Shown: positions 15,218 through 48,321 of the stretch, piece by piece | How the letters are laid out: every line of letters begins with the position of its first letter | Position numbering within the stretch: the stretch's first letter is position 1 | NCBI GenBank assembly: GCA_949502235.1 | Contig: CATBDC010000005.1 | Span: 1-64,000, forward strand | DNA from: an uncultured Lachnospiraceae bacterium | GTDB taxonomy: Bacteria > Bacillota > Clostridia > Lachnospirales > Lachnospiraceae | Reading direction: 5' to 3' | DNA: 64,000 nucleotides | The notes under the pieces: model-generated | Told to the model about the DNA's origin: nothing | Database searches by the model: none | The model's input: the letters and a program-made list of their open reading frames with translations, nothing else | Translations under genes and position numbers: made by a program

Positions 15218-15231
15218 AAAAGGTATGGAAG

Positions 15232-15259
15232 GTTACTGTGAACGGGAGTGAACAGTAAC
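15232..15259 (+). repeat. 27/28-bp palindromic repeat
   Basis: GTTACTGTGAACGGGAGTGAACAGTAAC. Confidence 0.9.
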
Positions 15260-18777: not shown

Positions 18778-18869
18778 CAGATTTACCTCCCTTTTCACAG
18801 CATTTTCCTGTGTTTTGTTATTATAATAATAAGGGGTGAAGTAGGTTGAATGTCAATAGATTAAAGAAA

Positions 18870-19133
18870 TTTTCTACCTGTACGGTTGGAATATCGTTCG
18901 GGGGACGGAAGTTTTCAGATACCCTTCCTAACGCAGACTGGGCAACACTCCGGTGAACTAACCGCTAACTACGGCTTAAGGAGTTCAGGAGAGCCTTCAC
19001 TCCTAAGTCTTCGTAAGCGGTGGATTTCACCTCCGTTAAGAGCGCCCCTGATGTCTGCTTATAGGAAGGGCATCTGAAAACTTCCTGTGCATCGAAAAGG
19101 ATGTTTCACCAGCACAGATGGAGATTTTTCCAG
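18870..19133. repeat. MITE-like element B, 'occupied' copy
   Basis: Reverse complement of the window-start element with element C inserted at 18930-19062; imperfect terminal inverted repeats. Confidence 0.8.
18930..19062 (+). ncRNA. Structured element C, copy 1 (candidate structured RNA or cruciform)
   Basis: Nested pairings GCAGAC/GTCTGC, GGGC/GCCC, GGTGA/TCACC, CCGCT..GGAGT/ACTCC..AGCGG with loop TCAGGAGAGCCTTC; homologous to 19160-19290 in inverse orientation. Confidence 0.6.
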
Positions 19134-19159
19134 TACACAGGCAGTTCGGGACAGTTCTT

Positions 19160-19290
19160 CCCCTAAGCAGGCGTTAAAAGGGCGTCCTTAGCGAAGGTGA
19201 GATCCACGATTTACGAAGACTTGGGAATGAAGGCTCTCCTGAATTCCTTAGTCGGAGTTAATCGTTAGCTCACCGGAGCGCTGCCCTGCC
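19160..19290 (-). ncRNA. Structured element C, copy 2
   Basis: Same nested pairings with changed bases (CAGGC/GCCTG, GGAAT/ATTCC, ACGATT/AATCGT); loop TCAGGAGAGCCTTC retained; flanked by CAGTTCGGGACAGTTCTTCCCC/GGGGAAGAACTGCCCCGAACTG. Confidence 0.6.
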
Positions 19291-19610
19291 TGTGTGGGGA
19301 AGAACTGCCCCGAACTGCCGTCCCTTGAATAATATTCCAACCGTACAGTTGGAAATTTTCATCTTGCCGAACCTGAAATTCTGTGATATTCTAAGGAAAG
19401 AATAAAAAGGAAAGGGATGAAAGGATGAAGAATATTTCTTGCTAATCAGAAATGTAACTGTACAGCTTACTTTTGCGGTGGTATTTATGGTATGATCTGC
19501 CGTTTGTTTGCTGTGCCGGCAGCAGGAAATTCTTTATCCGTATTCCATGTATAGAGTCAGTGCGTCTCTCTAAGAAATAGAATTGCAGCCAGGTTCTCAG
19601 GGAGTGATAC

Positions 19611-19685
19611 ATGCAGACCGCAGGAGAGGATTTTCCTGCGGTTTTTGGTGGCCCGGAAGGTTACTGTGAACGGAGTGAACAGTAA
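19611..19685 (+). CDS. Putative leader peptide (uORF) of the ABC-F gene: MQTAGEDFPAVFGGPEGYCERSEQ
   Basis: SD-like CAGGGAGTG 5 nt before ATG; codons run across the terminator hairpin and end in the 27-bp repeat. Confidence 0.5.
   Translation: MQTAGEDFPAVFGGPEGYCERSEQ
19617..19646 (+). terminator. Terminator/attenuator upstream of ABC-F
   Basis: ACCGCAGGA-gaggattt-TCCTGCGGTTTTT. Confidence 0.8.
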
Positions 19686-19686
19686 C
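19660..19686 (+). repeat. 27-bp palindromic repeat
   Basis: GTTACTGTGAACGGAGTGAACAGTAAC. Confidence 0.95.
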
Positions 19687-19721
19687 CCCGGCGGGCACAC
19701 GGTATTTCAGGAGGGATGCAT

Positions 19722-21203
19722 ATGTCATTGATAAATGTAATAGATCTAAGCTTTTCTTATGAAGGAAGCAGTGACGAAGTATTTTCGAATGTATCATTTC
19801 AGATAGACACGGACTGGAAGCTGGGATTTATCGGAAGAAACGGACGGGGAAAAACGACCTTTTTAAAGCTGCTTTTGGGAGAGTACCCATATCAGGGGAA
19901 AATATCCTCCCATGTTGAATTTGAATATTTTCCCTATGAGGCAGCGGATGAAAGCCGTATGACATGGGAGCTTGTGGAAGAAATCAACCCGCAGTGCGAG
20001 GAATGGCAGATTTTCCGGGAGCTGAATCTGCTTAAGACGGATGCAGGGGTTTTATACCGGCCCTTCTCTACCCTAAGCTTTGGGGAGAGGACAAAGGTGT
20101 TTCTTGCGGCGTTATTTCTTGGGGATAACAGGTTTCTTCTGATTGATGAGCCGACCAATCATCTGGACGCAGAAGGACGGCAGACCATAGCAGAATATCT
20201 GAACCGGAAAAAAGGATTTATTCTCGTTTCCCACGACCGGCAGCTTCTTGATTCCTGTGTGGATCATGTCTTGTCAGTTAATAGAAAAAATATTGAGGTC
20301 CAAAAGGGAAATTTCAGTACCTGGTATGCGAATAAAGAGGCAGAGGATAAGGGAGAGCTTTTGAAAAATGAAAAGCTTAGGGCAGAGATAAAACGTCTTG
20401 ATAAGGCGGCAAAAAGAACCTCTGTCTGGTCGGACCGTGTAGAGAAAAGTAAGAAAGGACAGAGAGCTGCGGGGTTAAGACCTGACAGGGGATTTATCGG
20501 ACATAAATCCGCAAAGATGATGAAGCGGGCAAAGGTGATTACGAATCGTCAGGTAAAGGCAGCAGAAGAGAAGTCAGGCCTTCTTAAAAATATTGATGAA
20601 TCGGAGGAGCTTAAGCTTTATCAGGAGGAATATCACGCAGATCGTCTTTTAGAGCTTAGAGATGTCAGCCTGTACTATGGAAGCAGGGAGGCTGTAAGCG
20701 GTGTGAGCCTGGAAATCTGCCGGGGAGACAGAGTATGCCTTTCCGGAAGAAACGGAAGCGGCAAATCCAGTATATTAAAGCTTCTTACAGGAGAGAATAT
20801 TGTCTTTACGGGGGAGTGCCGTATCGGAGCCGGGCTTAAGATATCCTATGTTCCCCAGGATGCATCGGGACTGAAGGGAAGCCTTGAAAACATGGCAGAG
20901 GACTATGGGCTTCCGGAAAGCCTTTTTAAGACAATTCTCCGGAAAATGGGCATGGAAAGGGCCCAGTTTGACAAAGATATCAGTGAATTCAGCGCCGGGC
21001 AGAAAAAGAAGGTCCTGCTGGCAAAAAGCCTGTGCGAGAAGGCACACCTGTATATCTGGGACGAACCTCTCAATTATATAGATGTGCTGTCCAGGATACA
21101 AATTGAGGAGGTACTGCTTTTATATAAGCCAACCATGATATTTGTGGAGCACGATGAGGTGTTTAAAAGGAAGGCTGCAACAAAGACAGTAGTTCTTGAG
21201 TAA
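19722..21203 (+). CDS. ABC-F ATPase (Lsa/Vga-like, ribosome-protection type)
   Basis: Two ABC domains (GRNGRGKTTFLKLL, LSGRNGSGKSSILKLL), no TM segments, LIDEPTNHLDAEGRQ, interdomain linker. Confidence 0.88.
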   Translation: MSLINVIDLSFSYEGSSDEVFSNVSFQIDTDWKLGFIGRNGRGKTTFLKLLLGEYPYQGKISSHVEFEYFPYEAADESRMTWELVEEINPQCEEWQIFRELNLLKTDAGVLYRPFSTLSFGERTKVFLAALFLGDNRFLLIDEPTNHLDAEGRQTIAEYLNRKKGFILVSHDRQLLDSCVDHVLSVNRKNIEVQKGNFSTWYANKEAEDKGELLKNEKLRAEIKRLDKAAKRTSVWSDRVEKSKKGQRAAGLRPDRGFIGHKSAKMMKRAKVITNRQVKAAEEKSGLLKNIDESEELKLYQEEYHADRLLELRDVSLYYGSREAVSGVSLEICRGDRVCLSGRNGSGKSSILKLLTGENIVFTGECRIGAGLKISYVPQDASGLKGSLENMAEDYGLPESLFKTILRKMGMERAQFDKDISEFSAGQKKKVLLAKSLCEKAHLYIWDEPLNYIDVLSRIQIEEVLLLYKPTMIFVEHDEVFKRKAATKTVVLE

Positions 21204-48187: not shown

Positions 48188-48321
48188 GCTTACTGTTCAC
48201 TCCGTTCACAGTAACCTTCGCAAATCCATTTAAAATTCGCTTCGCGAATGGGATTTGCTCACACCTGAATCACTTTCTTACGTACTTTGCAGTGAATGCA
48301 AAGTACTGTGTGAACAGTAAC
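48188..48321 (-). repeat. Composite structured repeat, copy 2
   Basis: Same organisation as 6278-6408, but variable stem is GTACTTTGCA/TGCAAAGTAC. Confidence 0.92.

Follow-up and report, generated by a model that had tools for sequence, protein, structure and literature searches.

Expression of the ABC-F gene at 19722-21203 in a 64,000-nt stretch of DNA from an uncultured Lachnospiraceae bacterium (contig CATBDC010000005.1, referred to as the window) raises the question of which upstream element, if any, controls it. The first-pass annotation had pointed to a terminator in front of the gene and to a short open reading frame (ORF) starting at 19611 and overlapping it, on which an antibiotic-stalled ribosome was thought to permit read-through. 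All genes, ORFs and leader elements described here for this locus lie on the plus strand.

The ABC-F gene and its upstream region

A resistance-type ABC-F gene is indeed present downstream of the terminator, with an in-frame ATG at 19716 in addition to the one at 19722. Its product scored 468 bits with the general ribosomal-protection model NF000355, passing the cut-off of 380, and 711 bits over the full length of the Lsa model NF000167, just below the cut-off of 750. According to these profile scores, it is an Lsa-type protein, predicted to protect the ribosome and to mediate antibiotic resistance. In a homology search, the nearest named records were from Lachnospiraceae and Dorea.

Transcription would begin near 19399, downstream of a probable promoter (TTGCCG-17 nt-TATTCT, 19364-19392) recognized in the nucleotide sequence. 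A consensus promoter scan did not list this promoter. The arrangement TTGC..-17-TATTCT is also present in L091, a member of the same genus, and consensus promoters occupy the corresponding place in the relatives L003, L005 and L017. Next to the promoter, with its right end 2-3 nt 5' of the -35 element, lies an imperfect MITE-like palindrome of about 495 bp (18866-19361), with about 72% similarity between its two strands. The genome contains many copies of it, complete or partial and mostly of 84-93% identity, and the palindrome was not seen upstream of the corresponding promoter in L090. In a distant part of the window, at 1140-1273, we found a drum RNA (Rfam RF02958, 86.8 bits).

The intrinsic terminator (19615-19646) consists of a hairpin at 19615-19644 and a U-run extending to 19646, and the segment 19608-19650 has a predicted folding energy of -20.6 kcal/mol and a stem of 13 bp. 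Its 3' arm, starting at 19631 and referred to below as element C, is conserved in homologues together with the U-run. Between terminator and gene lies a dispersed palindromic repeat (GAAGGTTACTGTGAACGGAGTGAACAGTAACC, 19656-19687, no strand assigned), which has more than 40 copies across the genome, as the earlier suspicion of a repeat at this position had it; within the window, further copies lie at 15227-15259 and 48190-48219. The repeat is absent from the corresponding place in L090, L091, L001 and L002.

A conserved six-codon uORF upstream of the terminator

Comparison of upstream regions revealed a conserved putative leader peptide, MKNISC, encoded at 19425-19445 (window sequence ATGAAGAATATTTCTTGCTAA, stop codon included in the coordinates), about 190 nt upstream of the ORF at 19611. 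The interval 19611-19722, previously taken as the regulatory unit, misses this conserved leader, which starts near 19399. The Shine-Dalgarno sequence of the uORF, AAAGGGA (19411-19417), aligns with a conserved GGAG in 39 leaders. In homologues, the uORF mostly precedes the gene by about 200-300 nt and encodes peptides such as MKNTSC, MINFSC, MIILSC, MYNFSC and MKMFSC, some of them one codon longer (SCR, SCK). Codons 2-4 vary widely, UCU-UGC is kept, and the cysteine codon is codon 6 in 63 of the 71 homologous leaders. In the aligned sequences, the Shine-Dalgarno sequence, AUG and stop codon are conserved across many families.

The end of the uORF coincides with element A (UUCUUGC, 19436-19442), the last base of which is at +18 from the uORF AUG in 63/71 leaders. 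A is complementary to element B (GCAGGAAAU, 19522-19530; core GCA[AG]GAA, in the window GCAGGAA), the first base of which lies 65-121 nt 3' of the uORF start among homologues. B is also complementary to the terminator 3' arm C (CUUUC[CU]UGC). It would pair with A, the 5' strand of a predicted anti-antiterminator, in the uninduced state and with C in the induced state. Between A and B lies a hairpin, P1 (GUACAGC/GCUGUGC, 19455-19515), in which six of the seven pairs are changed on both sides across 39 leaders. A second, candidate hairpin, P2 (CAUGUAU/AUACAUG, 19546-19613), was proposed from sequence and coordinates; its 3' strand includes the ATG at 19611, and P2-like pairing was noticed by eye in some relatives. 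MYRVSASL (19546-19572), considered as an alternative uORF, was dropped; it lies within P2 and has no Shine-Dalgarno sequence at the proper distance.

Conservation and covariation of the A/B/C triad

A triad of A, B and C was found upstream of 49 of 104 homologues, whose upstream regions had been gathered without use of the covariance model described below; about half of the homologues have no recognizable triad. All 2080 dinucleotide shuffles remained below the triad threshold (best score 40.5 versus 49). This shuffle control and the alignment A1 were built on an earlier set with 45/104 triads, which does not materially affect the null distribution.

RNAalifold, applied to 39 leaders, recovered the A:B helix, with covariation, and P1 without being prompted. 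The fraction of paired cells was 93% in the real data, compared with 88% in shuffles and 37-60% in slid controls, and double changes occurred in 42 cells versus 11 in shuffles. At B4-C6, we counted 42 A-U, 23 G-C, 6 G-U and no A-C pairs, although these are not independent events, given the relatedness of the sequences and the preference for complementarity that is built into the triad detector. Anti-antiterminator, antiterminator and terminator were found to be mutually exclusive, based on covariation, folding and the sharing of B by A:B and B:C.

A proposed ribosome-controlled attenuator

We observed the elements themselves, their conservation and covariation, and their specificity for one type of gene (see below). 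The arrangement upstream of the ABC-F gene is very probably a ribosome-controlled transcription attenuator of the vmlR type, with the uORF at 19425-19445 as its sensor, in which a ribosome stalled on the six codons probably prevents early transcription termination. Thus, the kind of control that had been suggested, antibiotic-dependent attenuation by a uORF and a terminator, is well supported, but the wrong ORF had been named.

Without drug, ribosomes would complete MKNISC and depart. A would then pair with B, and the terminator would act before the ABC-F gene, because B, held by A, would be unable to disturb it. A drug acting at the peptidyl-transferase center would arrest the ribosome on the uORF start codon or close to it. 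We infer the identity of this drug from the protein family: for an Lsa-type protein, it would most likely be a lincosamide, a pleuromutilin or streptogramin A. In toeprints of vmlR, a ribosome at the start codon covers the RNA to about +16 (PMC9226507). Since A extends from +12 to +18, a ribosome at the presumed stall position would mask most of it. B, thereby freed, would pair with C, the terminator would be weakened, and the presumed read-through would allow transcription of the gene. The same attenuation logic is experimentally supported for vmlR of Bacillus subtilis (PMC9226507). The variable codons 2-4 and the kept UCU-UGC fit stalling close to the start codon in which the peptide sequence would matter little. 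Such stalling with little peptide requirement has been discussed for PLSA drugs, although the uORF sequence of vmlR nonetheless matters for induction (PMC10201436).

In order to compare the folding of free and ribosome-occupied leaders, we blocked the uORF in silico. In free leaders, B:C pairing was 0 in all 71 cases, whereas with the uORF occupied it exceeded 0.5 in 34/71; a mock block gave 0. For the free window leader, A:B pairing was 0.98 and terminator formation 0.997. Blocking the uORF lowered the terminator to 0.81-0.84 and raised B:C to 0.05-0.15, varying with the transcript ends used, and in other members of the genus, B:C pairing upon occupancy was 0-19%. The calculations thus predict a ribosome-occupancy switch for the family, which is weak at equilibrium in the window. 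Because equilibrium favors the terminator in this genus, kinetic (co-transcriptional) folding, pausing or further factors must be assumed there.

Alternative explanations

Control could instead be mainly translational, with the Shine-Dalgarno sequence of the ABC-F gene sequestered by the upstream segment GUGCGUCUCUCU (19560-19571). We regard this as unlikely. The predicted 12-bp helix of this segment with the Shine-Dalgarno sequence and start codon was equaled in 2 of 300 shuffles and a similar helix in L091 in 4 of 300, and both vmlR and cplR possess such a second, translational layer (PMC9226507, PMC10201436). However, the helix did not exceed chance in L090, L001 and L002. Sequestration by 19560-19571 is at most an added layer.

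The ORF at 19611 (MQTAGEDFPAVFGGPEGYCERSEQ, 19611-19685, 24 codons) deserves closer inspection, since it had been read as the leader peptide, with a ribosome stalled at its start masking the terminator 5' arm and thereby allowing read-through. The ATG, an SD-like CAGGGAG in front of it and the overlap with the terminator are present as described, and the 5' arm indeed corresponds to codons 2-5. The ATG also occurs in L090 and L091, and an in silico block of 19597-19627 abolishes the terminator. Conservation, however, speaks against a leader peptide. When an ATG preceded by a Shine-Dalgarno sequence and followed by at least 8 open codons was required at this place, 4 of the 71 homologous leaders contained such an ORF, compared with 3.0% of random positions, and three of the four belong to the genus of the window. 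In L001 and L002, the ATG is directly followed by TGA. In L090 and L091, this frame stays open as far as the ABC-F gene and enters it, which implies that the stop in the window is derived from the repeat. The second half of the ORF, with its last residues and stop, lies within the dispersed repeat at 19656-19687. The shared residues, TAG-x-[DE]-FPAVF, follow from translating the conserved terminator in that frame. The ATG is moreover part of the 3' strand of predicted hairpin P2, and loading at 19611 would come too late, with a gap of about 10 nt between the footprint clearing RNA polymerase and the end of the hairpin at 19644. Stalling on this ORF is therefore a very improbable explanation of control, and the ORF is most likely a chance neighbor of the terminator, not a regulatory uORF or sensor.

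It is just as improbable that the terminator operates without ribosome sensing, with constitutive partial read-through and with the conserved upstream element serving simply as an RNA structure or as a binding site for a protein. The small equilibrium shift in the window itself would be in line with this explanation, but it leaves unexplained the conservation of uORF start, Shine-Dalgarno sequence, codon-6 cysteine and stop across many families. The footprint of a ribosome, on the other hand, accounts for the strict spacing between AUG and A.

Least credible of all is an amino-acid sensing attenuator, in which ribosomes would stall at the Ser-Cys codons that form the conserved peptide end upon cysteine or serine shortage, given that the downstream gene encodes a ribosome-protection ABC-F protein unrelated to amino-acid metabolism, that variants (YC, FC) preserve pairing rather than serine, and that RNA pairing explains the conservation of UCU-UGC, the strand that pairs with B.

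Distribution and gene specificity of the leader

A covariance model of the leader, R1, matched the window at 19411-19535 (72.3 bits, E = 6e-13); the second-best match in the whole source genome had an E-value of 2.5. Across the order, R1 matches were found in 42 of 295 genomes, and all 29 loci that were inspected adjoin an Lsa-type ABC-F gene. Across the phylum, 24 of 398 genomes gave matches, of which 22 also hold an Lsa-type gene. In the other two (L162, L167), the leader is directly followed by the initial codons of an Lsa-type gene that is truncated. These leaders (L162, 1501-1790; L167, 1501-1815) are intact attenuator leaders, and the truncated genes behind them are remnants of lost resistance genes.

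R1 also matched upstream of the plasmid gene lsa(E) of Enterococcus faecium (NZ_CP040905, locus L155; 88.4 bits), where the uORF encodes MYNFSC followed by a stop codon. By sequence comparison, the predicted leader RNA is thus conserved across many Bacillota and found also before the mobile lsa(E). The lsa(E) attenuator leader (L155, 1124-1238) belongs to the same leader family as that of the window and differs from it in having about 160 additional nt between terminator and gene, which may be a second regulatory region.

No R1 match was found before the staphylococcal plasmid gene lsa(B) (L156) or the Lsa gene of a Priestia plasmid (L157). The leader shared by these two is a different one: its uORF (..VTH..LRISR.. 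/ ..LCISR..) is longer, and it contains a CCGACTTTGTAT motif. The Lsa-type genes of L098 and L106 have other very short uORFs (MIHR and MRI, respectively, each followed by a stop) without M-x-x-x-S-C.

Relation to known attenuators

The principle of uORF-dependent attenuation is established, with vmlR (MIN), cplR (MRI), VmlR2 (MK[L/Q]), the predicted lsaA uORF (MAGN), tiaA and are5sc as examples. One closely similar system is vmlR of B. subtilis (PMC9226507), which likewise combines a uORF in the anti-antiterminator, an antiterminator, an intrinsic terminator, a start-codon-proximal stall and an ABC-F target. It differs in its MIN tripeptide and its hairpins, whereas here six codons contain UCU-UGC as a pairing strand and the gene belongs to the Lsa subfamily. 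Clostridioides difficile cplR (uORF MRI), induced by lincosamides and pleuromutilins, is also a clostridial ABC-F gene with uORF and terminator; unlike here, its terminator also hides the Shine-Dalgarno sequence of the gene, translational attenuation alone represses, and uORF and gene family are different (PMC10201436). For lsaA of Enterococcus faecalis, another Lsa family ABC-F gene, a short upstream uORF (MAGN) was predicted by uORF4u, but it is limited to close relatives (80% identity), and no M-x-x-x-S-C motif was reported (PMC10201436).

A search of 19360-19760 against Rfam returned no family at gathering or relaxed thresholds, the best chance matches being far below cut-off. In the literature searched, namely open-access main texts, M-x-x-x-S-C peptides gave only chance letter matches, and there is no mention of Lsa in the main text of the uORF4u paper. 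Thus, the attenuation principle is known, but the M-x-x-x-S-C leader itself, with its broad and clean distribution, appears in neither Rfam nor the literature searched. On balance, we favor the interpretation that it represents an undescribed phylum-wide leader family that is strictly associated with Lsa-type ABC-F genes and has moved with lsa(E) onto Enterococcus plasmids, which would make lsa(E) drug-inducible by attenuation.

The locus illustrates that a uORF chosen by eye beside a terminator can mislead. For the Lsa branch, the comparison defines a specific, testable leader family, which includes gut Lachnospiraceae and the plasmid-borne lsa(E). It offers a possible account of how Lsa-type genes may remain unexpressed in cells not exposed to a lincosamide, pleuromutilin or streptogramin A. 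Silent or inducible resistance of this kind would become recognizable in genomes.
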